From IMG/VR virus record IMGVR_UViG_3300031638_000020, positions 1-23,080 of that record: a stretch of 23,080 bases of DNA; one strand, written 5' to 3'. This stretch comes from a virus. The number at the start of each line of letters is the position of its first letter. Positions within the stretch are counted from its first letter, which is position 1. Of this stretch, positions 1,676-16,271 are shown in pieces. Position numbers and translations under genes: made by a program. The notes beneath the pieces were generated by a model. The model was not told the DNA's origin, did no database searches, and saw nothing but the letters and a program-made list of their open reading frames with translations.

Positions 1676-3550
1676 ATGACTAGAGCAAGAAACTTAGCTG
1701 ATCTAGCTGACAGTGCCAGCGTCTTAGATGACGTAACGGCAACTGCTGCTGAGCTAAATCTATTAGATGGCAAAGCATTCCTTGATGAGGATAACTTCGC
1801 AAGTAACAGTGCTACTGGTATCGCATCTCAGCAGTCCATCAAAGCATATGTGGATGGTATTACTACAACCAACGTAACGGCAACTGGTGCGCTCGACGGT
1901 GGTAGTATTACCTCTGGCTTTGGTAACATAGACAACGGTGCATCTACTATCACAACTACAGGCGACATCACTGCAGGTAACTTTGTTACATCTGGTAATG
2001 TAGATGGACGTGATGTCTCTGTTGATGGCACTAAGCTAGATGGCATTGAGGCTAGTGCTACAGCAGATCAAACTAACGCTGAGATTAGAACAGCGGTAGA
2101 AGCAGCAACCGATAGCAACGTATTCACAGATGCAGACCACACTAAGCTAAACGCCATTGAGGCTTCGGCTGACGTTACTGATGCAACTAATGTAACGGCT
2201 GCTGGCGCACTGATGGATAGTGAAGTCACTAACCTTGCACAGGTTAAGGCATTCAGTGCAGCCGACTACGCTACAGCGGCTCAAGGTACGCTTGCAGCAA
2301 ATGCTCTGCCCAAAGCTGGCGGCGCTGTGACAGGTAACGTGACCTTTGGTGACTCAAATAAGATTGTCATGGGGGCAGGTTCAGATTTAGAGCTGTATCA
2401 CGATGGTGGAAATAGCTTTGTTGATGAAGTTGGAAATGGCAGGTTATACATTAGAGCTTCTGATGGCATTTTTCTGTCAACACCTAGCAACGCTTTATAT
2501 TTGTCTACATACGACACAGGTAACGTATCTCTATATCACAACGGCGTAAAGAAATTTGACACGACCAGCAGCGGTATCGATGTAACAGGCACAGTCAACG
2601 CAGATGCTCTCACGGGTATCGGTAGTATTGATGCGACTACAGCAGCGTCGATTACGGCGGCGGGCGTAGGCGGGTCTACGCTGGGGCGTAGTTGGTATAG
2701 AGCATATGATACTGCGGGTGGATCAACTGATTATAGGGGTGCTGCTACTTCAAGCAGCAAGGTTATGATTGGAAAAGGTGGTGCGGCACCTATTATTAGC
2801 ACTGACGGAATAAGGTTTTCTGCGGCAGGAAGTGGAACCACATACCCTTATTCAATACGCGTTCTTGCGTATTCTTCGAGTTTAGACATATGGGTAGCAG
2901 GCTCCTCAAATGGTAGAATTGCCTATAGTTCAAATGATGGAGCAAACTGGACGCTAGTAAATACTGGAACAAATGCTGACCATTATGGCTTGCATTGGAA
3001 TGGATCAATGTTTGTTTCTGTTTCAGAGGCCAGTGGAACTATATACAGTTCTACAAACGGCACATCTTGGACATCACGCTTGACTACATCTACCGCCATA
3101 AAGGATGTCACATATGGAAATGGAAACTGGGTGGCAGTCGGGGCTTCTAGCACCGTTTGGTACTCGTCGAATGGCACATCTTGGAGCACAACAAGTACGG
3201 GTGTCCCAAGTGGGCAAACGTGGAATGCTGTTCACTATGCAAATGGTTATTTTGTTGCTTGCGCTCCCGGTGGGCAGTCTATGTACTCAACAAATGGCAC
3301 ATCTTGGACTGGGTATTTCGGTCCTAGCAGTGTTGTTCAAGGCGGTATTGATTATATAGGTGGTGTTTGGGCATGCGGCGGAAGCACCAACGGGATTATA
3401 TCATTTTCAGAAGCACACAACGGGCCTTGGAGGGAAATCCCGCAAGCTGCTGGGTTTTCAAATAGTGTCAACACAGCACTTTCAACCAGTGTGGGTGGGC
3501 AGAAAATTATTTTCCCGGCAAGTAATGGAAACATTACTTACAGTGTTTAA
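1676..3550 (+). CDS. Long tail fibre with C-terminal beta-propeller-like repeats
   Basis: This is a 624-residue fibre. Residues 1-35 (MTRARNLADLADSASVLDDV... AAELNLLDG) are a typical marine-phage fibre leader. Residues about 35-210 are a repetitive shaft with two related units, each containing T(K)LDGIEASA or TKLNAIEASA followed by VTA-x-GAL. Residues about 215-330 contain LELYHDGGNSFV and VSLYHNGVKKFDT motifs common in fibres. From about 345 to the end the protein is Ser/Gly/Trp-rich and carries five repeats spaced 38-42 residues apart, each centred on a YSS-N-G-T-S-W type motif. That is the signature of beta-propeller blades of the BNR/sialidase-like type. The C-terminal part is the likely receptor-binding head; enzymatic activity is not indicated. 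AGAGGA about 9 nt upstream supports the start. A chaperone-like gene follows. Confidence 0.8.
   Translation: MTRARNLADLADSASVLDDVTATAAELNLLDGKAFLDEDNFASNSATGIASQQSIKAYVDGITTTNVTATGALDGGSITSGFGNIDNGASTITTTGDITAGNFVTSGNVDGRDVSVDGTKLDGIEASATADQTNAEIRTAVEAATDSNVFTDADHTKLNAIEASADVTDATNVTAAGALMDSEVTNLAQVKAFSAADYATAAQGTLAANALPKAGGAVTGNVTFGDSNKIVMGAGSDLELYHDGGNSFVDEVGNGRLYIRASDGIFLSTPSNALYLSTYDTGNVSLYHNGVKKFDTTSSGIDVTGTVNADALTGIGSIDATTAASITAAGVGGSTLGRSWYRAYDTAGGSTDYRGAATSSSKVMIGKGGAAPIISTDGIRFSAAGSGTTYPYSIRVLAYSSSLDIWVAGSSNGRIAYSSNDGANWTLVNTGTNADHYGLHWNGSMFVSVSEASGTIYSSTNGTSWTSRLTTSTAIKDVTYGNGNWVAVGASSTVWYSSNGTSWSTTSTGVPSGQTWNAVHYANGYFVACAPGGQSMYSTNGTSWTGYFGPSSVVQGGIDYIGGVWACGGSTNGIISFSEAHNGPWREIPQAAGFSNSVNTALSTSVGGQKIIFPASNGNITYSV
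2922..3430 (+). repeat. Five beta-propeller-like blade repeats
   Basis: Inside the long fibre, related segments recur with the endings SSNDGANW, SSTNGTSW, SSNGTSW, STNGTSW and a looser HNGPW. The first Asn codons lie at about 2933, 3056, 3170, 3293 and 3419, giving spacings of 123, 114, 123 and 126 nt, close to the size of one propeller blade. At DNA level the string (C/T)GGCACATCTTGGA is shared by three copies, at about 3058, 3172 and 3295, so the duplications are fairly recent or under homogenisation. Confidence 0.7.
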
Positions 3551-4101: not shown

Positions 4102-6192
4102 ATGGCTAAACGATTTGCAGGTTTCACTCCTGAACAGCTAGGTAAGATTATACCTGAGATGCAGGGTATGCAGGCTGATGAACAGGCGCTCTTCTTGGCA
4201 TCAAAACCAGGAGCCTCTGCATCTGAGCGCATAGCCAAGATGGCTGAAGCTGCACAGAAGCGCATTGGTATGGCTTATGGTGGCATGGTAAAGAAGCAGG
4301 GTTATGCTGTTGGTGGTACTGTAGATCCACAAGCTAAGCTAGATGCATCTCAGCAAGGTATAGTTACAGCAAACCAAACCGTACAGGATGCTATTGCTGC
4401 ACAAGCAGCAGACCCAGGGAATGCAAACCTTGTGGAAGCCGTAACAAAAGCACAAGCATCTGTAGGTACTGCACGTCAAAAAGCTGCATCAGCATATAGT
4501 GACTTCAAGACTACAGAAATACCCACTCCTGCTGAGTTTACTGCTAGTGCAACACAAGACCCTAGTTCCATTACAAAGACAGCTGATGTAGTTAACATAA
4601 CAGATGCAGATAAAAAAGCAGGCCAGATTACCACAGGAACAGGTCAAATCACTGGTGGCGCACCAGAGGTAACTACTGAAACTGCTGCAACTGCAGGCGG
4701 TGTAGCTGCCCCAACTCCACAGGCTGCAGTAACATACACACCTCTCTCTGTAGAGGCTACAACACAGGATGTACTTGACCGCCTTGAGGCTGCTACAGGC
4801 AAGCCCAGTGATGAAGCTCTCGTAGACGCACAGTCAATGTCACCACAGGATCTAGCTCAGCTAGGCCTCAGTGCCGCACAGCTTTCAGAAGCACAGAGAG
4901 TACAGTCTGTTGCTCCACGCACTGTTCAAGCAGGTGAGATGATTGAAGGCTCCACGGTTGATATGACCCGTGTTAAAGCTGAAACTAACTTTGCTGCTGC
5001 TACAGGTGCACCATCTACGGATGCTACTGTACAGGGTCAGCTTACTAGCCTTATGGAAGACTTTGAGGGTAACGATCCTCCTGCATGGGCGGCTGGTGCT
5101 ATGCGTGCTGCTACTGCAACAATGGCTGCACGTGGCTTAGGTGCTTCCTCTATGGCAGGGCAGGCTATTGTCCAAGCGGCTATGGAATCAGCAATGCCTA
5201 TAGCTGTACAGGATGCACAGACATCAGCACAGTTTGAATTGACTAACCTTAGTAACCGCCAGCAGACAGCTATGTTCGCTGCAGAGAAACGCGCTGAGTT
5301 CCTTGGACTAGAGTTCAACCAGAACTTCCAGACACGTGTAGCTAACTCAGCAAAGATATCAGAGATTGCTAACATTAACTTTACTGCTGAACAACAGGTA
5401 GCTCTTGAGAATGCACGTATGGCTCAGTCTGTAGACCTTACTAATCTTACTGCTGCTAACGCTAAAGTAATGGCAGACGCTGCAGCTATGACACAGATGG
5501 ATCTCACTAACCTGAACAACCGTCAACAAGCGCAAGTACAGAACGCTAAGTCATTCCTAGACATGGACATGCAGAACCTTGCTAATGATCAGCAGACTAC
5601 AATCTTTAAGACACAAGCTATGACTAATGCATTACTATCTGATCAGGCAGCTGAGAATGCCTCTAAACAGTTTAATGCTTCAAGTGAAAATCAAACAAAC
5701 CAGTTCTTCTCTAACTTGTCATCACAGGTATCTATGTTCAATAACGAACAGACTAATGCTATGAACAAGTTTAACGCTGGTGAAACTAATGCAGTACTAC
5801 AGTTTAATGCAGCACAGAAGGCTGCTCGTGATCAGTTTAACTCTAACAACGGTCTAATTGTAGCACAGGCTAATGCTGCATGGTCACAGGCCACTACAAC
5901 AGCTGAAACTGCAGCACAGAACCAAGCAAACCGTGATGCAGCTATGACTGAAAATGAATACACCATGACAGCCTACAATAATGTCATACAAGAAGAGCGT
6001 GACTTAATAAGTTACGCATTTAGTGCTGCAGAGGGTAGTGCTGACAGGGATGTACGTTTGCAGATTGCAGCTATTCAAGCAGAAACTAGCGAAGCTGGAA
6101 TACAGGCGCAGGTTGATACAGCACGAGGTCAAGGTACAGGTAAGCTCCTAGCTATCTTTGCAGACAAGGCCTTGGAGTGGGCCTTCAGCTAA
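4102..6192 (+). CDS. Virion structural protein with 22-residue (hendecad) repeat rod
   Basis: This is a 696-residue protein with no catalytic motif that I recognise. Residues 1-90 include FTPEQLGKIIPEMQGM and a YGGMVKKQGYAVGGTV segment; such Tyr/Gly/Met-rich motifs are frequent in marine-phage structural proteins. Residues about 70-270 are Ala/Thr/Gln-rich. Residues about 330-377 (AMRAATATMAARGLGASS...) lead into a region at 378-619 made of eleven consecutive units of exactly 22 residues (two hendecads), rich in Asn, Gln and Ala. The end is LLAIFADKALEWAFS. The periodicity predicts a long alpha-helical rod or right-handed coiled coil. An internal virion or tail-needle component is the best inference, given the position between fibre and ejection-like genes. 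AAGGA lies 12 nt before the ATG. Confidence 0.75.
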   Translation: MAKRFAGFTPEQLGKIIPEMQGMQADEQALFLASKPGASASERIAKMAEAAQKRIGMAYGGMVKKQGYAVGGTVDPQAKLDASQQGIVTANQTVQDAIAAQAADPGNANLVEAVTKAQASVGTARQKAASAYSDFKTTEIPTPAEFTASATQDPSSITKTADVVNITDADKKAGQITTGTGQITGGAPEVTTETAATAGGVAAPTPQAAVTYTPLSVEATTQDVLDRLEAATGKPSDEALVDAQSMSPQDLAQLGLSAAQLSEAQRVQSVAPRTVQAGEMIEGSTVDMTRVKAETNFAAATGAPSTDATVQGQLTSLMEDFEGNDPPAWAAGAMRAATATMAARGLGASSMAGQAIVQAAMESAMPIAVQDAQTSAQFELTNLSNRQQTAMFAAEKRAEFLGLEFNQNFQTRVANSAKISEIANINFTAEQQVALENARMAQSVDLTNLTAANAKVMADAAAMTQMDLTNLNNRQQAQVQNAKSFLDMDMQNLANDQQTTIFKTQAMTNALLSDQAAENASKQFNASSENQTNQFFSNLSSQVSMFNNEQTNAMNKFNAGETNAVLQFNAAQKAARDQFNSNNGLIVAQANAAWSQATTTAETAAQNQANRDAAMTENEYTMTAYNNVIQEERDLISYAFSAAEGSADRDVRLQIAAIQAETSEAGIQAQVDTARGQGTGKLLAIFADKALEWAFS
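5233..5958 (+). repeat. Eleven 22-residue protein repeats (66-nt period)
   Basis: Counting residues from Phe378 of the 696-aa protein gives eleven consecutive units of 22 residues with no gap. Units begin FELTNL, FLGLEF, IANINF, VDLTNL, MDLTNL, MDMQNL, ALLSDQ, TNQFFS, MNKFNA, RDQFNS and TTTAET. The second half resolves into 11-residue subunits with FN, FF or AN at the same place in each (KQFNASS, NQFFSNL, SMFNNEQ, NKFNAGE, LQFNAAQ, DQFNSNN). The DNA units have diverged, so this is a maintained protein periodicity and not a recent tandem duplication. Confidence 0.85.
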
Positions 6193-6240: not shown

Positions 6241-7275
6241 ATGGCACTTTTATCACAGTCACAGCAGGATAACATCTTAACAATGATGTCACGTCTTAAA
6301 CAGCGTGCAGCAGAAGCACAAGAGATATCTATAGAACCTGCAAAGGCACCTAAGGGTGTGTTCAATAAACCAAAAGAAAACCCACGACCAGCTTCGGGTG
6401 ATGATATGGTTCTTAATGTTGTGAACCGCCTACGCCAGAAAGCAGATGTAGCTATGGCAGAACAGAAGCCCATAGAAATGGGAAGCTATGATGTGACTGC
6501 ACTTAGTATTCCTACATCTCAAGATAGACCCAATGGACGTTCTTCTTCTGTAGCAGAGAGCTTTGTAACTAAAGTGTCAGATAAGGTGTTTGGTACAGGT
6601 GATACAGAAGATCCTGTAGTGGATGCAGACGCTATTGATTCTGCTGTCACTGAAGCTGTTACATCTTCTGACAGTGGCTTGATGTCCCGCCCAAAAGCTA
6701 GGCCCTTTATTACACCAGAGAAATATAAGATAGCTGTAGATGAGATGTCAGATAGAGAGATGCTGGCTCGTACTATTGAGGCAGAGGCCGCAAAAGAAAA
6801 GTATAATGGCAAGTTAGCCGTAGCTGCTACAATAGCTAATAGAGCAGCTTCAGGTAACTTTGGCGGAGATATAAGGGGTGTTATACTTAAAGTAGGTCAC
6901 TTCTCACCTTGGAATACGTATACAGGCCACGCAGAGGGTAAGCAGGGCAAAGATATGACTAAAATGAAGGCTAGTGAAGACTCTTATAAAGCAGCAGATG
7001 CTATTCTATCAGGGGACTACACAGACCCAACAGGCGGTGCAACTCACTATGTAAATGAAAAGGTAAATCAACCTTCATGGCTGACTAAGGGTGGTGTTGG
7101 CGATGTTGGCATGAAGGGTCGTGCTAGAGGTACTAAACAAATAGGCAACCACTTGTTTGGTAATGCAGATAACAACGAGGTCTATGACGGACAGGCTTGG
7201 GCTAAGATGATGGCAGATATGGCTACTTCCCCAAGACCACAAAAAAGACCAGACACTCAGGTAGCAGGTAACTAA
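6241..7275 (+). CDS. SleB-type cell wall hydrolase (endolysin or virion-associated lysin)
   Basis: This 344-residue protein has a C-terminal Hydrolase_2/SleB domain at residues about 172-315. It reads MLARTIEAEAA (the conserved Glu is E182), LAVAATIANRA, FSPWNTY, DPTGGATHYVNEKVNQPSWL and IGNHLFG, all hallmarks of the family, which cleaves the glycan strand of peptidoglycan. Residues 1-160 are not catalytic; they contain two similar helices (ILTMMSRLKQRAAEA and VLNVVNRLRQKADVA, residues about 12-27 and 58-73) and a low-complexity linker, perhaps for virion docking. I chose the ATG at 6241, with CAGG 10 nt upstream, over an in-frame TTG at 6193 that would directly abut the previous stop. There is no signal peptide, so either a holin or virion delivery is needed. 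Confidence 0.85.
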   Translation: MALLSQSQQDNILTMMSRLKQRAAEAQEISIEPAKAPKGVFNKPKENPRPASGDDMVLNVVNRLRQKADVAMAEQKPIEMGSYDVTALSIPTSQDRPNGRSSSVAESFVTKVSDKVFGTGDTEDPVVDADAIDSAVTEAVTSSDSGLMSRPKARPFITPEKYKIAVDEMSDREMLARTIEAEAAKEKYNGKLAVAATIANRAASGNFGGDIRGVILKVGHFSPWNTYTGHAEGKQGKDMTKMKASEDSYKAADAILSGDYTDPTGGATHYVNEKVNQPSWLTKGGVGDVGMKGRARGTKQIGNHLFGNADNNEVYDGQAWAKMMADMATSPRPQKRPDTQVAGN

Positions 7276-7706: not shown

Positions 7707-8276
7707 ATGGCTACTAAACCAACACAATTCGAGGGGCCAATTCCAGGTCAGTCTCTAACTACTGAACCCAAGAACGTACCTTGGGAGCAGCCACCTCAGT
7801 ATGCTGATCCTATGGATGCTTTAGAGATGTACATGAAACGTCTTGGTGATCCAGAGGCTCAGGATGAGTTAATTGATATGCTGGACATTGGTATTCCTAT
7901 TAGTATTGTTACATCAACAATGTTGTCTCGTGGTGTTATGGATGGTATGCATTCTGTTGATACTAAAATCCTATTGAAACCTATCCTAGCAACACAGATC
8001 CAAACGATAGCGGATGTTGTAGGTATTGAATACAAAATTACTATGGCTGACTATGGTGACATGGAAATCGTTAAAGAAGATCGTATGAAGCGTAAATTCG
8101 CTACTAAGCTAGAGCTTGCTATTGCTAAGGGTGATGCAGAAGATCCCGGCGTACAGATGCAGCAGGATGTTGTAGAGTTGATGGGTGAAGATGAAGAGAT
8201 GGAAAGCCCTGAGATTGAAGCAGTAGAAGAAACACAAGAAGATATGCCTATGGGCATCATGGCAAAGGAAGTTTAA
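7707..8276 (+). CDS. Conserved marine-phage structural protein, function unknown
   Basis: This 189-residue acidic protein begins with a proline-rich segment (PIPGQSLTTEPKNVPWEQPP) followed by YADPMDALEMYMKRLGDPEA, then a helical core with LDIGIPISIVTSTMLSRGVM and KPILATQIQTIADVVGIEY. The C-terminal 45 residues are Glu/Met-rich. The PG-x-SL...PWE-x-PP-x-YxDPxxAL pattern resembles a protein I recall from cyanophages and other marine phages, where it is annotated as a virion structural protein. TAAGG is about 10 nt before the start. It sits directly before the two giant virion genes and may be a scaffold or adaptor for them; this is inference. Confidence 0.65.
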   Translation: MATKPTQFEGPIPGQSLTTEPKNVPWEQPPQYADPMDALEMYMKRLGDPEAQDELIDMLDIGIPISIVTSTMLSRGVMDGMHSVDTKILLKPILATQIQTIADVVGIEYKITMADYGDMEIVKEDRMKRKFATKLELAIAKGDAEDPGVQMQQDVVELMGEDEEMESPEIEAVEETQEDMPMGIMAKEV

Positions 8277-8278
8277 TC

Positions 8279-11164
8279 ATGGCAATCACTGGTGCATTTG
8301 GTGCAGGACTTATAGGTGGCTTTGGTACTACCCTAGCTGGTAAGATTGAAGACCGTACAGCAAAGCAAGAGAAGTATGAAGATCTAATGATCGACTCCGC
8401 TAAAGCTAAGGCACCTAAGTATGCGGCTACAACTGCTGCTTACAACAACACTGTGACTAGAGCTAAACAGCTAAAGTCTGAGTTTGGTTTCTCTGATACA
8501 GAGATTGTAGGTATTGCAAGTAAGTACGACATCAATAAGATCTACAACGACATGTTTGAACTAAAGGCTCAGGCAAAAGCAAATGGCACTGAACTAGGCT
8601 TTGATAAGAGCCTCATCTTGGGTTCACTTAATCTGCCTGCAGACACTATGCTACCAAAAGGCATGACTATGGAGCAGGGCTTACGCCAAATCGCTTTCAA
8701 TACACAGGCTAACCTAGACAAGAGCGACAATCCTAAGTCAGAAGTATCTCGCAGGAGTGCATTTGGTAAAGCTTTGGGTGAGATGTTTGCATTCAACCCT
8801 AGGGCAACAGCCACAGATATGGTTAAAGGTATGGAGATTGCTGGCTTTAGCGGTGAAGAGATTATGGCTTGGAGTCCAGAAGCTGGCCCCGGAGATGTTT
8901 TCCCTGAGATATCTGCTGGACCACTTTCACTACCTGACCAAGACTACAAAGCTACAGATCTTAAGACAGTAACAAATAACACTCGTGTATCCTTTGCTAG
9001 ACAGTTTGATCTTATTGATGAGGCTGGTAATCCACTGACGCTTAGCAAGCCTATGGCTACTGCATTTGGTGAAACTAACTCTGCAGCAGCATCGGCAACG
9101 GCTGGCCTTCTAATTGATGATGCTGCAGCTGCAATGGCACGTATTGACAGGAACTTGGCCTTCAAGGGTTATGCTAGTGGCTTTGGCAATATAGGCCTAC
9201 GTGAAGACACCCGTGGACGATTGCGCCGTATGATTGACACCCCAGCTGAACTAAAGCAGTTCGTTGAAGCTGAGAAGAGTGGTGCTATAACTAAACTGCT
9301 TTTGCAGGACAGTGGAACATTTACTGATACACAACTTGAAGCTGTACTGTCAGGTAAAGATCCTAATGCAATAACTACAGATACTGTAAGTGATGCAACT
9401 AGTGATGCAACATCTCTTGTATTAGACAGTGAAGCAGCTGCTATAGCAGAAGCTATTACACCCGAAACTGGGGGTGACACTGGCACAGGTACAGGCTCTA
9501 TTAAACCTGCTGCTGGTTCATCTAACTTTCCTGGTGGACGCTCTCTACTTGATACTATCGTAGCTAATGGGTCTGAGACACCCGCTGTTGGAGAGCCACC
9601 AGAGTCCGTTGATGCTGTTACTGCAACAGTACCTGATCGTAGTTCTATGGAGGCTAGATTTCAGAAATGGGTTGCACCTCTGATGACTCCAGCAGTTGAT
9701 CAAGGTCTAGTATCAGAAGTTGGCATGGATAGAATACCAAAGGATGACAGCTGGAAGAATAGTTCCTTCCTATTACCGGAGGACGCTGAAAAACTCTCAA
9801 AGTCTGTTATTGCTGGTGAAGTTACTGGTGACTTTCTACAAGAGGTATGGGATAGGGGCAACACAGACTTTGGTGTAGCCATTGATATTGGTAATGCAGG
9901 TCTTTCCTATGGCCTTGCCTCCGTTATAGACTTTGGTAGAGGTGTACTTGGAGCAGACTCTGATTCTACCTCAGGGGATTGGTCCAACAGCCTTAAAGAT
10001 GCGGGTGCCTTCTACTCACAGAGAGCCTCTGACATTGCTACTATGGGGTGGAAAGATTATGTAGAAGCTCAAACTGAAGTAGAAGTACCTGAAGCTGTTT
10101 TAGCAGAAGTCAAAGGCGGGTTTGATACAGAAGTATTTACAGCTAGTGGCGTTAATACAAAAGATGGTAAACTCTCATATGAAGCGTTTGCTGGTTTTGT
10201 ACCAGACTTTCCCGGTGATGTACCACCTTCCTTAAGGACTCAACAAACGGGCACTTCACTACCAAGTAAAGTAATGTCTACTGTAGAATCACTGATGGCA
10301 CCTACACGGGGTCTTATGGAAATGGAGATGCCTTCCTCAGAAGAACTTCAGGCTGCTATAACAGAGCGTACAGGACAGATACCAAAGGACTATAAGAGAC
10401 AGATAGTAACGTCTATCAATTCCTTTAATGAAACACTTAAAGATTTTGAGGACTCTGTAAACGTTTTTGTACCTAATGCCATTGATGCTGTATCTTCTGC
10501 AACTCTGTCGGGTGTTGATAACATAAATGACAGGCTTAAAGCCCTTGAGACATTAGTAAATGAAACTATGGATGCTGAAGTTGATAAACGTGTACCTGCC
10601 TTTAAGGAGTTGCAGCGCCAGTTTGGTGAGCTAACCTTATTCCCAAGTAAGAAGGAAGGTACAATAGATACAGGGCCAAACACAATAACTGATACTCAGT
10701 TTGACACTGATGCAGCTGTTCTTGAGTTCTTTTCCCCTGAGAGGAATGCAGTACGAAAGCGTATAATACAAGACCTGTTAGGTATAGAGACAGAAGATAC
10801 AACACCTCTACCGGAGCCTGAAGTATCGCCTAGTATCATGTCTAAACCTGTTGACACTAGCAAGAGAACTGGTACAGTATCAAAGCCTACTACAAGTATG
10901 ACACAAGATCCTGCTATTGAGGTAGAAGCTCTTGTAGCAGAGGTAGAGGATAAGTTCTGGATTAAGCCTAAAGATGCTGTAACAAATACATATGAGTCAG
11001 TATTCTTGAAGGCCTTAGTGCAGAATAGGAAGAAGCCTCTCTCATTCAAGACAGAGAAAGCTGCAGAAGCTTGGGTTAAGAAGAACTTCCCAGATAACAA
11101 ACTGAAGTCTAGTGAAGCTCGTAACCTTATTGTAACACTTGCTGCACGTTTCCCTTCTAAGTAA
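8279..11164 (+). CDS. Large putative internal virion (ejection) protein, 961 aa
   Basis: This 961-residue protein has no enzymatic motif that I recognise. It opens with a Gly-rich hydrophobic segment (residues 2-21), then helical regions. A low-complexity Thr/Ser/Asp stretch lies near residues 360-375 (TDTVSDATSDATS) and a Gly/Thr-rich linker (GGDTGTGTGS) near 400. A long helical region runs at about 710-820, and a Lys-rich end contains KAAEAWVKKNFPDNK. Podoviruses such as T7 store several large proteins inside the capsid that exit to form the DNA-ejection channel. Size, order and pairing with the next gene fit that role. AAGGAAG lies 7 nt upstream; the gene starts 2 nt after the previous stop. 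Confidence 0.65.
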   Translation: MAITGAFGAGLIGGFGTTLAGKIEDRTAKQEKYEDLMIDSAKAKAPKYAATTAAYNNTVTRAKQLKSEFGFSDTEIVGIASKYDINKIYNDMFELKAQAKANGTELGFDKSLILGSLNLPADTMLPKGMTMEQGLRQIAFNTQANLDKSDNPKSEVSRRSAFGKALGEMFAFNPRATATDMVKGMEIAGFSGEEIMAWSPEAGPGDVFPEISAGPLSLPDQDYKATDLKTVTNNTRVSFARQFDLIDEAGNPLTLSKPMATAFGETNSAAASATAGLLIDDAAAAMARIDRNLAFKGYASGFGNIGLREDTRGRLRRMIDTPAELKQFVEAEKSGAITKLLLQDSGTFTDTQLEAVLSGKDPNAITTDTVSDATSDATSLVLDSEAAAIAEAITPETGGDTGTGTGSIKPAAGSSNFPGGRSLLDTIVANGSETPAVGEPPESVDAVTATVPDRSSMEARFQKWVAPLMTPAVDQGLVSEVGMDRIPKDDSWKNSSFLLPEDAEKLSKSVIAGEVTGDFLQEVWDRGNTDFGVAIDIGNAGLSYGLASVIDFGRGVLGADSDSTSGDWSNSLKDAGAFYSQRASDIATMGWKDYVEAQTEVEVPEAVLAEVKGGFDTEVFTASGVNTKDGKLSYEAFAGFVPDFPGDVPPSLRTQQTGTSLPSKVMSTVESLMAPTRGLMEMEMPSSEELQAAITERTGQIPKDYKRQIVTSINSFNETLKDFEDSVNVFVPNAIDAVSSATLSGVDNINDRLKALETLVNETMDAEVDKRVPAFKELQRQFGELTLFPSKKEGTIDTGPNTITDTQFDTDAAVLEFFSPERNAVRKRIIQDLLGIETEDTTPLPEPEVSPSIMSKPVDTSKRTGTVSKPTTSMTQDPAIEVEALVAEVEDKFWIKPKDAVTNTYESVFLKALVQNRKKPLSFKTEKAAEAWVKKNFPDNKLKSSEARNLIVTLAARFPSK

Positions 11165-11181: not shown

Positions 11182-14100
11182 ATGGACTATTATACCCCAG
11201 AGAAGATGCAGGGTAAGAAGGTTTCGGATCTAAAGATGGACCGTAACTTCCTTTCAGATGCTGTAACATTCCTTAAGAGTAACCGGAAGGGCATGACTGA
11301 CGAAGAGCTAAGCAAGTATACACCAGATGATGTTGTGGATGAGGTTCTAGAACACTTCCGTATGGGTACAATGAATGAAGTCACTATGGCTAAGGACTTG
11401 TACTTTGTGAATGATGAGCAAGCCCCTGAGACTGACCGTCAGGCCTATGGGCGATTACTGTTTAGTTTTGACAACGCAGAGGGTGAAGGCCTTTTAGATC
11501 GTGGTGGTGAAAAGATATACGACTATGCTAAAGGTATTGCCACTGCCCCATCCACCTATCTCTCTGTAGCTGCTGGCGCATTTACTGGTGGCGCTGGTGG
11601 TGCAGCTGTACAGGCTACAAAGCTTGGCGCTCATCAGGCTGTACGTAAGGTTGCTAACAAGCTGATTGGACGATCTGTTATGGTTGGTGCTCTTGAGGGT
11701 ACTATGGCGGCTGGATCTCAGCTAGGCCTAGAGCGTATCAAGCAGTCAGCAGGTAAAGAGATTGGTGAAGACTATGATGTTAATATGGGTAATGTTGCCC
11801 TTGCTGGAGGTATTGGTACAGTTATTGGTGGGGCTGCTTATGCTATCCCTGCTATGCGCCGTAATAAAGCGGCCCACCGCCTAGTTGATACTCTTGATAA
11901 GGGAAGACAGGCTAACGTAGCAGCACTACAAACAGCTAATGCTAACACTGAGACTACTATCAAGAAGGCTCTATCTACAGCAGAGGGCAAGAAGAGGATG
12001 ACATTCACTACGAATAGGCTCCTTAAAGCTATTGACCCTGCGCTTGTTAAAGAGGGCATGGCAGCTAAGTACGACATCCTTAGTGACACGCTCCCTGATG
12101 GACTTATAGGTGGTCTTGAGCGCTCTACTCTTAGGCGCATTACTGCTGCCTCATTTGAACTGTCTAAGCAGCTTAACGTAAAGCCTGAGTCAGGTCAGCG
12201 TATTACTGAGTTGCTTGCTAAGACTATTGATGAGAATGGTAGCAGCGATATCTTTACTACGATTGCATCTGACTTTGGTTTAAGTAACCGTCAACTCTCT
12301 GCAGTGTATGCAGCAGAAGTATCAGAGGCTGCTAAGATCCTGGCTGATCAGTCTAAGCTGGTTCGCAAGGGTGGCGCTAAGCTTGTTGGTGCTATAGATG
12401 CTAAGACTTTCTCTGATGATATCCAACGTTTGTATAATGCAGGTATGTCTACAGTAGATGCGGATGAAGCGAAGAAAGCTTTGGATGCTGGAGCAGCGGC
12501 TGGACACGGTATTGCAGGTAGGGCTTGGCGTGGCTTTAAGGAAGTTGAATCAGCAAGACGTGCCTTTATGACTTCTCAGGTTGCTACAACCATGCGAAAC
12601 AATATATTTGGTGTAGCCATGACAGGCATTGATATGCTTGACCAAGTTAATACTGGTATATACCGCCTTCTTACAGGGCGTGGTAAAGAGGCTATGTCTA
12701 CATTCAAAGGTACAGTGGATACGTTTAACTATCTTACTAAAGATAATGCTGTAGCTGAAGCTATGATGAAGATTCTACGACAGGATGCACCAGAGACACT
12801 CTCACGTGTATTCCAGGATGCTGCAATGGCAGAGAGTTCACTTGTATCAAACTCTGTATTAGCTAGGATGGGTAAAGGGTTCAACGTACTAAACACAATG
12901 TCAGACCACACGTTCAAGAAGGCAGTTATTGCTGGTAATCTGGATCGACAGTTTAAAGCTAGAGGCAGCAGTCTCCTAAAGGAGATGGAAGCAGGGCGTT
13001 TAGGCAACATATCAAATGAGATGCTTACAGAGGCTCTTGATGAGAGTTTATCATTTACCTTCCAGCGTAAGTTTGGCAGTAAGGGTTCATCTGCAGAGAG
13101 CCAAATAACTAAAAAGATTGTAGATGGTATCAACAAGAGTGGTCTAACTTTGCTTATACCTTTTCCACGGTACATGGCTTCACAGGCTAAGTTTATTAGT
13201 GACTACACAGGCCTAACTCTTATACGCCGTTTAGGTACAGGACGTAAGATTGCTGATGAAGAGTTTGGCAAGGCAGCAAGTGGTGCTGCTATGTTTGGTG
13301 CTTTGTATGCTGTACAAAAAGGCAACATTGAGAATGACCTAGAGTGGTTCAATGGTCAAACAGATGATGGTCAGACTTATGATGCACAGGCTGCGTTAGG
13401 ACCAGCTGCTATGCATGCCTACCTAGCAAACCTAGTGGCTCGTATCCAAGGTGGACATGAAGTTAAGGATACTGCAGCCATTAAGAAGGATATTGTAAAG
13501 ATCACCGTAGGTACAGAGTTCCGCCCAAGTGGTACAGCTGTAGATAAAGCTATACGCTGGGCAGAGACAGGTGATAATAAGGCATTCTATGATTGGGTGG
13601 GGGATACGTTTAGTGCCTTCACTTATCCTGCAGCAGTAGTGAAGGACTTCTATGGGCAGCTTGACCCAAGGGCCTCTTACTTTCCAGAGACACGGGACGC
13701 TACAGTGAGCTTGTTGGAAGCATCAGGGCCAATGGAAATGGCAATGTCTACTTATCAGCGTATAACACGCCAGCTGCCTGACTTTAATAGTGCCACTATG
13801 GCTAATACTCTTGATGAAATGACAGGGATTAAAATGGACCCTAAGAAGATGGAGGGCTTTCTAGAGTTCTTTAAGTCTTCTACACGGGCTACCTTCCAGA
13901 CTGACTACCTAGAAAATACAGATGAAGGCTATGACGCTATTCGTATGGACATCTTTGGTGAGGGGCCTCTACGTGCTACAAACCCCTTTCTCAAACAGAT
14001 CTTGGGTATCTCAGGTAAGCCACGCTCTAATGTGTTGCAACGGGAAATGGTAAAGCTTCAGTTAGATCCATTCCTAATCTACAACCCTTACCGTGAAAAG

Positions 14101-14568
14101 AACCCTGCAGTCTCTATCTTAGCAGAACAATCTATGCAGGGTCACTTGTTAGATGAGATGAAGAAACTCATTAGTTCTACTCTGTATCAATCCTCTACTG
14201 TAGAAGAACAGAAGCTACTTCTTTCAGGAGGCAATGGCTACACTGAGAAGTGGGAAAATGTTAAGGGTATAAAAGACTATGTAAGCATGGCACGTAAGAA
14301 TGCACGTGAGAACTTAGCTCTTGCTGCATCAGATCCTAAGTATCAAGGTGACTACATAAACTGGACTAGAGGTCGCTTACAGGCTCTTGGTCCTGCAGAT
14401 CGTAAAACTCTGGCACCTATGTTTCAGCGGTATGCTGTAGGTACAGACTACGAGGGTATGACAATAGAAGAAAGCATTGCTGATATAAAAGCAGACAAGG
14501 ATATGAATGAGCGTGAGAAAGACATTAAGATAACCACGCTAATCAATTACTACTTAGCAATGGAGTAA
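11182..14568 (+). CDS. Very large putative internal virion (ejection) protein, 1128 aa
   Basis: This is the longest gene here, at 1128 residues, and the last of the late block before the terminator. Residues 1-115 are soluble and charged. Residues about 122-150, 163-182 and 203-225 are three Gly/Ala-rich, zipper-like hydrophobic segments (SVAAGAFTGGAGGAAVQA; GNVALAGGIGTVIGGAAYA) able to pack or insert in a membrane. The rest is mostly helical, including a segment with LTLLIPFPRYMASQAKF near residue 654 and an acidic/basic end with MNEREKDIKITTLINYY. T7 gp16-like ejection proteins are similarly long, and their regions insert into the cell envelope. I see no lytic transglycosylase or peptidase motif. 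CGGAG 6 nt upstream supports the start. Confidence 0.65.
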   Translation: MDYYTPEKMQGKKVSDLKMDRNFLSDAVTFLKSNRKGMTDEELSKYTPDDVVDEVLEHFRMGTMNEVTMAKDLYFVNDEQAPETDRQAYGRLLFSFDNAEGEGLLDRGGEKIYDYAKGIATAPSTYLSVAAGAFTGGAGGAAVQATKLGAHQAVRKVANKLIGRSVMVGALEGTMAAGSQLGLERIKQSAGKEIGEDYDVNMGNVALAGGIGTVIGGAAYAIPAMRRNKAAHRLVDTLDKGRQANVAALQTANANTETTIKKALSTAEGKKRMTFTTNRLLKAIDPALVKEGMAAKYDILSDTLPDGLIGGLERSTLRRITAASFELSKQLNVKPESGQRITELLAKTIDENGSSDIFTTIASDFGLSNRQLSAVYAAEVSEAAKILADQSKLVRKGGAKLVGAIDAKTFSDDIQRLYNAGMSTVDADEAKKALDAGAAAGHGIAGRAWRGFKEVESARRAFMTSQVATTMRNNIFGVAMTGIDMLDQVNTGIYRLLTGRGKEAMSTFKGTVDTFNYLTKDNAVAEAMMKILRQDAPETLSRVFQDAAMAESSLVSNSVLARMGKGFNVLNTMSDHTFKKAVIAGNLDRQFKARGSSLLKEMEAGRLGNISNEMLTEALDESLSFTFQRKFGSKGSSAESQITKKIVDGINKSGLTLLIPFPRYMASQAKFISDYTGLTLIRRLGTGRKIADEEFGKAASGAAMFGALYAVQKGNIENDLEWFNGQTDDGQTYDAQAALGPAAMHAYLANLVARIQGGHEVKDTAAIKKDIVKITVGTEFRPSGTAVDKAIRWAETGDNKAFYDWVGDTFSAFTYPAAVVKDFYGQLDPRASYFPETRDATVSLLEASGPMEMAMSTYQRITRQLPDFNSATMANTLDEMTGIKMDPKKMEGFLEFFKSSTRATFQTDYLENTDEGYDAIRMDIFGEGPLRATNPFLKQILGISGKPRSNVLQREMVKLQLDPFLIYNPYREKNPAVSILAEQSMQGHLLDEMKKLISSTLYQSSTVEEQKLLLSGGNGYTEKWENVKGIKDYVSMARKNARENLALAASDPKYQGDYINWTRGRLQALGPADRKTLAPMFQRYAVGTDYEGMTIEESIADIKADKDMNEREKDIKITTLINYYLAME

Positions 14569-14602: not shown

Positions 14603-14806
14603 TTATCGTATACCATGTGTCTTGGCACAATGTTTAGACCAAAGCACGAAGGCAGTTAAATGCTCTAGTGCTTTTTCTTTTTCTTCGCTAGGCCAGAGTT
14701 GCTTGTTAATAAAGTATTCAATCTCTTCTGTATTCCTAGCTAACTCTTCGTAGAACTTAATGCGTGTGCCTTCTACGTGCGCCTTAGCTTCCTGTTCTAA
14801 CTTCAT
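14603..14806 (-). CDS. Small protein, candidate Acb2/Tad1-type anti-CBASS sponge
   Basis: This 67-residue, helix-only protein is the last gene of the - strand operon. It shows two helices separated by a turn: KFYEELARNTEEIEYFINK, then PSEEKEKALEHLTAF followed by VLWSKHCAKTHG. The second part matches my memory of the Acb2/Tad1 hairpin family, whose C-terminus typically reads P-S-x-E-(R/K)-x-x-A-x-x-x-L-x-x-x-x-x-W-x-x-x-x-I-A. Known Acb2 proteins bind cyclic oligonucleotide messengers and so block CBASS and related defences. The N-terminal helix is shorter than usual for the family, and the binding residues cannot be confirmed by eye. The start overlaps the HNH stop (TAATG), with AGAGAGAAG upstream. 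If not Acb2, it is an unknown helical hairpin. Confidence 0.6.
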   Translation of the reverse strand: MKLEQEAKAHVEGTRIKFYEELARNTEEIEYFINKQLWPSEEKEKALEHLTAFVLWSKHCAKTHGIR

Positions 14807-15555
14807 TAGATACTTCTCTCTGACTCAAATGTGTATAGACTCTTTATGATAGTACTCTTTGTATCTTCACAGACAGAGGCATTCTTACTAAGGTTCTCCG
14901 CTGCAGGTATGACCTGTAAGTTACCACTCCAGTGAGGCCCACCATCTGCTAGAGGCCACATATGATCTACATGGTGTTGCAATCCTGTGGCTTTACTTAG
15001 TATGTTACTCAGCTTGTATATCCCTACTAAGCGTTTCTTCTCGCGAATGCATTCACGTAGGTGTACAGGTATCTGTTTTAGCTTTAAGGCTCTTCGTTTT
15101 GCGTTTGAAGCGTATTCAGAAGCCTTGTTGTTTCTATAATAAGCCCTTCTGTATAAGTTCCAAGCCTCTCTGTTAGCTTCTCTATAAGCTTTTTTTCTAT
15201 CCTTGTATCGATCTTTGAAGACACTTTTGTTAACTTCGTAATATGCTTTTTTCTTTATAAGTATCTCAACCTTGTTATCTTCATACCAATCTTTTTGTCT
15301 TACTCTCACCCAATCCTTGTTAGCTTCTCGCCAAGCTTTCTGACCAGCAGCTACTACATCTTTATTAACTTCTCTATAAGCTTTTCCTACTGTAGCTATC
15401 TTTTCTTTGTTAGCTTCTCGCCAAGCTTTATTTACTGCAGCTATCTTTTCTTTGTTAGCTTCTTTATAAGCCCTGCTCTTAGCATTTCTTTTTTCTTTGT
15501 TGCGTTCATGGTAAGCTTTATCTACTGCAGCCTTTTGTTCCTTGCTCTGAGCCAT
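14806..15555 (-). CDS. HNH endonuclease with 15-residue tandem-repeat arm
   Basis: This 249-residue protein is probably a free-standing homing-type nuclease. Residues 13-151 consist of nine Lys/Ala/Tyr/Glu-rich units with the pattern K-A-(Y/W)-R-E-A-N-K-E-K-I-A-A, almost all exactly 15 long, probably a highly charged helical DNA-tracking arm. Residues about 194-225 form the HNH core: HHVDHMWPLADGGPH, then NLQVIPAAENLSKNA, with the D-H, the GG-x-H and the N-L...N all present. I chose the ATG at 15555 over an upstream in-frame ATG at 15588, because it has a near-consensus Shine-Dalgarno (AAGGAGGGG) 5 nt away and overlaps the PhoH stop in a TGATG. Confidence 0.85.
   Translation of the reverse strand: MAQSKEQKAAVDKAYHERNKEKRNAKSRAYKEANKEKIAAVNKAWREANKEKIATVGKAYREVNKDVVAAGQKAWREANKDWVRVRQKDWYEDNKVEILIKKKAYYEVNKSVFKDRYKDRKKAYREANREAWNLYRRAYYRNNKASEYASNAKRRALKLKQIPVHLRECIREKKRLVGIYKLSNILSKATGLQHHVDHMWPLADGGPHWSGNLQVIPAAENLSKNASVCEDTKSTIIKSLYTFESERSI
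15103..15519 (-). repeat. Nine 15-residue (45-nt) tandem repeats in HNH gene
   Basis: Units read from right to left begin KAYHERNK, RAYKEANK, KAWREANK, KAYREVNK, KAWREANK, KDWYEDNK, KAYYEVNK, KAYREANR and RAYYRNNK. All are 15 residues except the seventh, which is 19. On the + strand the matching DNA shows recurring words such as GTTAGCTTCTCGCCAAGCTTT at two places. Units toward the start codon are more alike than those near the HNH core, suggesting expansion from the 5' end. Confidence 0.85.
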
Positions 15556-16271
15556 CACAACCCCTCCTTCATAAACACCTTGACCCACTCTGCACAGATA
15601 CCACTACGCACAATGTCATCAATACCAAACTCAACTACTGGTGCATCTAACATGTACTTCTTAGAGAGATGTATGACCTTAGCTAGACCAGACGTACCCT
15701 TAAGATCTGACTGTTGGATATCACCGTTGAGTACAATAGTACTGCCTTCGCCTACCCTAGTCAACAGCATCTTGATCTCACTGATCTCAATGTTCTGTGC
15801 TTCATCTACGATAATGAATGCATCATCAAAGCTACGCCCACGCATGAGCGCCAGTGTTGCTACTTCAATGTTACCTGCCTTCAGTCCTGTATCAACAGCA
15901 CCACGCCCTAGATGTTTAACCAGTACGTCTAACACAGGTAGTGCCCAAGGCTGAGCCTTCTCTTCAAGCGTTCCCGGCAGGAACCCAATGTCTTTACCTA
16001 CAGCTACGTGAGGGCGTGTGATAACAATCTTGTCAATCTCTTTTAGTGTATACAAGTCTGCAGCACATGTAGCTGTAACGTAGGTCTTACCAGTACCAGC
16101 AGGACCAAGTATCAACACCTGCTTGCTACTAGCAATGGCATCAATTAGCTTACCTTGGTTAACTGTCTTTGGTACTATACCTGATACAGGCTTAGAAGAG
16201 GCTCCCTTGTAGGTTGTCTTCCTTCTTGTGCGTGTCTGCTTTTTTGGTGGCTCTAATGTGTCGGTGTTCAT
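15555..16271 (-). CDS. phoH: PhoH-like P-loop ATPase
   Basis: This 238-residue protein has the full PhoH ATPase core: Walker A GPAGTGKT at residues 56-63, an ITRP motif at 84-87, Walker B IIVDEAQN at 153-160, and LNGD with a following Gln pair at 181-187. PhoH-family ATPases/putative RNA helicases are common auxiliary genes of marine phages; their exact role is unsettled, with suggested links to phosphate stress or RNA metabolism. Residues 1-40 are Lys/Arg/Thr-rich and poorly conserved. The ATG at 16271 is the only Met before Walker A, with GGA 8 nt upstream, but this makes the gene overlap the upstream GIY-YIG gene by 80 nt. A later GTG start remains possible. The stop overlaps the HNH start. 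Confidence 0.9.
   Translation of the reverse strand: MNTDTLEPPKKQTRTRRKTTYKGASSKPVSGIVPKTVNQGKLIDAIASSKQVLILGPAGTGKTYVTATCAADLYTLKEIDKIVITRPHVAVGKDIGFLPGTLEEKAQPWALPVLDVLVKHLGRGAVDTGLKAGNIEVATLALMRGRSFDDAFIIVDEAQNIEISEIKMLLTRVGEGSTIVLNGDIQQSDLKGTSGLAKVIHLSKKYMLDAPVVEFGIDDIVRSGICAEWVKVFMKEGL
15561..15569 (-). promoter_or_regulatory. Strong Shine-Dalgarno for the HNH gene
   Basis: On the - strand, AAGGAGGGG is followed by 5 nt and then ATG at 15555-15553. It lies within the last codons of PhoH and decides the HNH start against the ATG at 15588. Confidence 0.75.

Follow-up and report, generated by a model that had tools for sequence, protein, structure and literature searches.

Podophages discharge conduit-building proteins before their DNA, and what fixes the dimensions of the conduit in these short-tailed phages is poorly understood. 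In P22, about 12 copies of gp7, 12 of gp16 and 30 of gp20 are injected (PMC8402733); in T7, six two-helix subunits of gp14 make up a helical channel (PMC11784390), and known gp14-like proteins range from 181 to 240 aa (PMC8954989). The SU10 proteins gp20-24 are likewise present in the virion and gone after genome release (PMC9509320). Here we describe a protein of an HMO-2011-type phage, a member of a group described as among the most abundant of marine viruses (PMC9038755), which may belong to such a set, and whose central segment, hereafter the rod, varies in length among practically all homologues by exact multiples of 11 residues.

The window analysed, a virus record of 23,080 bases, comes from an HMO-2011-type marine podophage. 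Its + strand carries the 3' portion of the structural genes; its - strand carries genes for replication and nucleotides, among which those for a class II ribonucleotide reductase, a PhoH-like protein and a family A DNA polymerase. The relevant features, with the basis of each assignment, are the following:

4102..6192, +, 696-aa rod protein, homologue of HMO-2011 phage1322_25 (ORF; tblastn)
4102..4317, +, N-terminal module, residues 1-72, MAKRFAGFTPEQ...GGMVKKQGYAVGG (start motif, consensus)
4318..5013, +, variable Ala/Thr/Gln/Pro-rich linker, residues 73-304 (N-terminal lengths)
5014..5196, +, conserved N-terminal anchor, residues 305-365, PPAWAAGAM...RGLGASSMAGQ... (conserved columns; HMM anchor)
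5197..5649, +, N section of the rod, residues 366-516, NLxNxQQ hendecads with two hydrophobic faces (position profile, length classes)
5650..5880, +, QFNA section of the rod, residues 517-593, 7 hendecads (position profile, 11/3 power)
5881..6189, +, W594 (C-terminal anchor), a conserved helix and a short end of moderate hydrophobicity, LLAIFADKALEWAFS (invariant W; hydropathy)
6241..7275, +, cell wall hydrolase adjoining the rod gene (PF07486, E 2.9e-19)
7707..8276, +, 189-aa protein with the PIPGxSLT..PWExPP motif, 3' of the rod gene (alignment)
8279..11164, +, 961-aa protein, positional equivalent of SU10 gp23 / T7 gp15 (gene order)
11182..14568, +, 1128-aa protein, positional equivalent of SU10 gp24 / T7 gp16 (gene order)

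Conservation differs among the neighbours of the rod gene. The protein with the PIPGxSLT..PWExPP motif is retained 3' of the rod gene in 11/11 phages aligned; identity is very low for the 961-aa protein and low for the 1128-aa protein, the gene of which is the final one of the structural block. When the latter was used as query in a scan of viral contigs, three loci were found, versus about 600 for the rod with the HMO-2011 query: this protein, which by position corresponds to the largest of the ejection proteins, thus seems to evolve far faster than the rod. By sequence-profile search, no solved relative was found for the 1128-aa protein, and the hits to the other two neighbours were weak and no better than chance. 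Elsewhere in the window, a tail fibre protein (1676-3550) features successive motifs resembling Asp boxes at its C-terminal end (SSNDGANWT, SSTNGTSWT, YSTNGTSWT), suggestive of a beta-propeller, and a putative HNH-type endonuclease (14806-15588, - strand) contains Lys/Glu-rich, KAYREANKEK-like repeated units in its N-terminal half.

The rod protein matched 27 phage records by tblastn, Roseobacter phage CRP-603 being the best (60%) and HMO-2011 phage1322_25 matching at 52%; all are hypothetical or unannotated, except one labelled 'huntingtin'. Family members occur in both marine and soil viruses. The window protein matched no Pfam and no PHROGs family, and no solved relative of the rod was found by sequence-profile search; the HMO-2011-type family is without an entry in either collection. 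The N-terminal module is widespread within the close family, its start motif being found in 86 distinct homologues, among those with a complete N-terminus. A LysM domain lies N-terminal to the rod in 3/54 relatives scanned, and would fit a contact with peptidoglycan.

A C-terminal Peptidase_S74 domain, which a Pfam search did not find in the window protein, is carried by 3/48 aligned relatives (CRP-212, CRP-235 and CRP-738); in other podophages, S74 is also seen in proteins annotated as serving ejection or injection. The same three rod proteins match PHROG 4287, 'DNA ejection protein'; for CRP-235 and CRP-738, the match consists of the S74 domain and a short preceding stretch, and therefore indicates a shared module rather than homology of the rod. 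In the HMO-2011 clade, rod proteins (L001, encoded at 11389-13506, and 45 further homologues) have at their C-terminal end a VAREVYG...FAKFISNKP... module, occupying the site where other relatives carry S74 or nothing.

The starting observation, made in an earlier note, was that residues 378-619 of the 696-aa ORF (4102-6192), corresponding to positions 5233-5958, divide into eleven perfect 22-residue repeats with recurring LTNL/FN anchors. The coordinates are correct, and the periodicity is real: compared with 2000 shuffles, similarity within this region peaks at lags 22 (z 7.2), 44 (z 5.3), 11 (z 4.9), 33 (z 3.6) and 55 (z 3.1), lag 7 being depleted (z -2.3), and the same lags dominate across 47 homologues. 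The repeats are, however, far from perfect, as only 46/220 residue pairs (21%) are identical at lag 22, the LTNL anchor is found in 3/11 blocks, and no tandem repeat is detected in the gene at the DNA level. The extent, too, needs revision: in residues 1-377 lag 22 gives no signal (z -1.3) and lag 11 is raised (z 3.6), and a single unbroken 11-residue phase, beginning no later than P366, is held to W594, both residues lying beyond the repeats, and spans two differently patterned sections.

P366 and W594, being outside the repeats, were used as anchors: they were placed by HMMs in each homologue, and their separation was measured in 203 distinct sequences, taken from the best 80 loci per scan. 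In 202 of them, the distance differs from the 228 residues of the window by an exact multiple of 11. The classes observed are 140, 151, 162, 173, 184, 217, 228, 283, 316, 317, 338 and 448 residues, 11 of which are in register and range from 140 to 448 residues, which for a helix would correspond to about 21-67 nm; the off-phase exception, 317 residues, is contributed by one sequence. This rod (L190:3656-5020) carries one additional residue near the W anchor, which could be either a skip residue or an assembly error. The regions flanking the rod in these proteins served as a control: their lengths, 134 distinct values on the N-terminal side and 40 for the C-terminal tail, show no preference for any of the 11 residue classes. 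When a tree of 96 sequences was made from the anchor regions only, parsimony required at least 9 changes of rod length: were each of 9 changes free, the odds of all of them hitting multiples of 11 would be about (1/11)^9. The phase is thus maintained in homologues, the point on which the earlier proposal could have fallen. The constrained unit is, in contrast, not the 22-mer, which is ruled out by differences of -11, -55, -77 and +55 residues: these are odd multiples, and the quantum is therefore 11. On sequence grounds, something appears to enforce an exact 11-residue repeat, while the sequence of the rod drifts freely.

Rod length tracks phage lineage more than host envelope. Among phages of strain FZCC0040, the rod is 217 residues long in CRP-207 and 162 in both CRP-212 and CRP-235, and Pelagibacter phages feature rods of either 316 or 162 residues, in different strains; both observations speak against the host as the factor that sets rod length.

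Residue preferences were profiled over 46 cluster representatives, on an 11-residue wheel numbered with P366 as p0. Over the whole rod, power is absent at 3.67 residues and strong at 2.75 and 2.2, because the rod consists of two sections with differing patterns. The QFNA section, the last 77 residues before W594, is characterized by Phe at p4 (70%), Asn at p5 (72%) and Ala at p6 (60%), and has a classical 11/3 hydrophobic face, with coherent phase, in 22/46 representatives at p<0.01. In the N section, Leu, Met, Val or Ile at p3 and Leu or Ala at p6 lie on one face and hydrophobic residues at p1 on the opposite side, along with Asn at p5 (72%) and Gln at p0 (48%); a single 11/3 (3.67-residue) hydrophobic seam is found in 0/46 representatives at the same threshold. 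The simple hendecad bundle originally envisaged is at odds with this two-faced section. Helices with two opposite faces could line up laterally to give sheets or wide barrels.

The rod is Asn/Gln-rich, less hydrophobic than the tail segment, and poor in Pro (0.4%) and Gly (1.3%). In the AlphaFold2 model of residues 297-696, the confidence of which is low (pLDDT 62.6, pTM 0.23), almost the whole chain is helical, and a fold search with this rod model gave no PDB match. Nothing globular was predicted, which speaks against the globular fold considered as an alternative in the earlier note, but these values are too weak to establish a rod; a low-confidence monomer may be what is to be expected of an extended assembly, and proves neither a rod nor a bundle. 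If fully extended, the helix would measure about 34 nm by residue count, in agreement with the 35 nm first estimated. For phage1322_23 of HMO-2011, a 502-aa neighbour, the model (pLDDT 82) is mostly helical and retrieved generic coiled-coil and BAR-like matches, with no ejection protein among the matches listed.

Gene order was compared in HMO-2011, CRP, HTVC, phiM6, CHOED, MQM1 and Slicky01 versus SU10, T7 and P22. The rod gene heads a cluster of ejection-type genes at the 3' end of the structural block: it is followed by variable small genes, which in some phages are lysis or cell-wall genes, by that of the PIPGxSLT..PWExPP protein (about 185 aa), and by two genes encoding proteins of 370-960 and 820-1670 aa, usually the last before the strand switch. 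SU10 has gp22 (323 aa), gp23 (552 aa) and gp24 (1474 aa) at the same place, gp22 being a distant relative of Salmonella phage 7-11 gp20, the DNA ejection protein of PHROG 4287. Acyltransferase-like genes, labelled 'toxin-activating lysine-acyltransferase', 'N-acyltransferase' or 'putative acetyltransferase', are also found, in several phages, near or adjoining the rod gene or adjoining S74 ejection-type genes (L088:4006-4455, L089:1443-1865, L290:4685-5179 and L299:2911-3315), and their products might acylate an ejection protein, aiding its insertion into the membrane.

From its gene position, the rod protein is probably a virion protein; a literature search found no virion proteomics of any homologue. 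The likeliest reading, to which we give a probability of about 0.5, is that it is the first of a podophage DNA-ejection set and plays the part of T7 gp14 or P22 gp7. This reading is favoured by gene position, by the S74 and LysM domains of some relatives, and by the 11-residue periodicity of unrelated podophage ejection proteins. Counting against it are the length of the protein, 459-1141 aa in isolates and outside the range of gp14-like proteins, the lack of marked 11-periodicity in P22 gp7, PVA1, SU10 gp22 and 7-11 gp20, and the only moderate hydrophobicity of the C-terminal end in the window protein, where the best 15-mer has a KD of 1.07 (family medians 1.2-1.5). The PHROG 4287 match falls, in CRP-235 and CRP-738, on S74, a mobile module, and the short stretch ahead of it, and hhalign detected no profile similarity to T7 gp14 or P22 gp7 (probabilities 0.1-0.2%), nor to 7-11 gp20. 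The protein may thus work like gp14 and gp7, and we do not assign it to their family, given its size and the sequence comparison.

As an ejection protein, it would reside in the virion, leave ahead of the DNA and build part of the conduit across the bacterial envelope. The central segment would be a helical rod of 11-residue, three-turn units, copies of which would bundle together to form a stiff helical wall of the conduit; units would be gained and lost only whole, since any other change would put the packing faces before and after it out of register.

The main rival to an ejection protein is a tail needle, or a central tail fibre, comparable to P22 gp26 and SU10 gp18: the protein would then be a trimeric helical rod that plugs the short tail or protrudes from it, and the S74 domain of some relatives would serve as trimeric assembly chaperone. 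Trimeric fibres are the usual substrates of S74 chaperones, and the presence of S74 among rod relatives agrees with such a role. Needle genes, too, sit immediately 5' of ejection genes (P22 gp26; SU10 gp18, PMC9509320), and a rod of 24-34 nm is close to the 26 nm of the SU10 needle (PMC9509320). However, rods reaching 67 nm would be long for a needle, two hydrophobic faces exceed the need of a one-seam trimer, and P22 gp26 shows no profile similarity to the rod protein (hhalign probability 0.05%); moreover, the P22 needle fragment prefers lag 7 (z 2.5), the one avoided by the rod (z -2.3). We regard a needle as rather doubtful. It is unlikely that the segment acts in the manner of siphophage tape measure proteins, as a hendecad rod setting or filling the length of a tail or conduit: this would accord with rod lengths shifting by whole units and with Phe every 11 residues, though in the QFNA section only, as tape measure proteins have aromatic residues at 11-residue spacing (PMC5099701), but HMO-2011-type phages are described as short-tailed (PMC9038755), the relatives' PHROGs matches are to other families and the window protein has none, and host strain does not fix rod length, as seen with the two lengths on FZCC0040. 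Of the functions proposed earlier, a channel or ejection role is therefore the one best served by gene context, a needle being possible and a host-set length opposed.

Two further explanations concern the repeat itself. Repeat proteins naturally gain and lose whole units, and the multiples of 11 might merely record such duplication and loss, with no structural selection, as the whole-unit length classes would allow. We consider this quite improbable: the gene contains no present tandem repeat at the DNA level, units are only about 21% identical, odd and even multiples both occur, and a single off-phase length is seen among 203 sequences. The lags of 11 and 22 equal, in addition, the periods of the apolipoprotein A-I and alpha-synuclein families, so that the rod could be thought of as a membrane-binding amphipathic repeat; an apolipoprotein-like helix was dropped as highly improbable, the N section having no single amphipathic face (0/46 at 3.67 residues) and the rod being Asn/Gln-rich and less hydrophobic than the tail segment.

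For an ejection protein, a doubtful extension is that the bifaceted hendecad helices stand side by side in an alpha-helical cylinder lining the DNA conduit, whose length would be set, lineage by lineage, in 1.65-nm steps. If true, the rod would be the podophage counterpart of a tape measure protein, located inside an ejection protein. The exact three-turn steps of the rod, over a threefold range, offer in any case a clean natural experiment on what determines the dimensions of the transient DNA conduit in short-tailed phages.

Among known systems, T7 gp14 and P22 gp7 resemble the rod protein in being Ala/Gln-rich and first in a run of ejection-type genes ending the structural block, and the T7 protein builds the helical channel, a hexamer of two-helix subunits, mentioned above (PMC11784390); in contrast, the rod protein is two to six times longer, has no detected sequence relation to them and alone contains a quantised hendecad rod. 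SU10 gp22 and 7-11 gp20 (PHROG 4287) share its relative gene position, and 7-11 gp20 also the S74 domain of some rod relatives, but both are without strong 11-periodicity, and 7-11 gp20 has no profile match to the rod; no marked 11-periodicity was found in P22 gp7, T7 gp14, PVA1, SU10 gp22 or 7-11 gp20. Strong 11/22/33 periodicity is instead a feature of two 'putative ejection proteins', Pseudoalteromonas phage H6/1 gp17, which ends in S74 as the S74-bearing relatives do, and ct76p945: their units are Gly/Ala-rich, unlike NLxNxQQ and QFNA, no homology to the rod was detected, and a viral-contig scan with H6/1 gp17 gave no loci. With hendecad coiled coils, the rod shares an 11-residue phase practically without slips (202/203) and, in the QFNA section, an 11/3 seam, the two-faced N section, devoid of 11/3 power, being the difference. 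On the sequence evidence considered here, we would assign it neither to tail needles nor to tape measure proteins: siphophage tape measure proteins do resemble it in the 11-residue spacing of Phe, in unit-wise changes of length and in predicted helix, but the rod belongs to a short-tailed phage group and has no PHROGs match. These comparisons suggest that ejection proteins of podophages, too, make use of 11-residue helical repeats such as are known in the tape measure proteins of siphophages.
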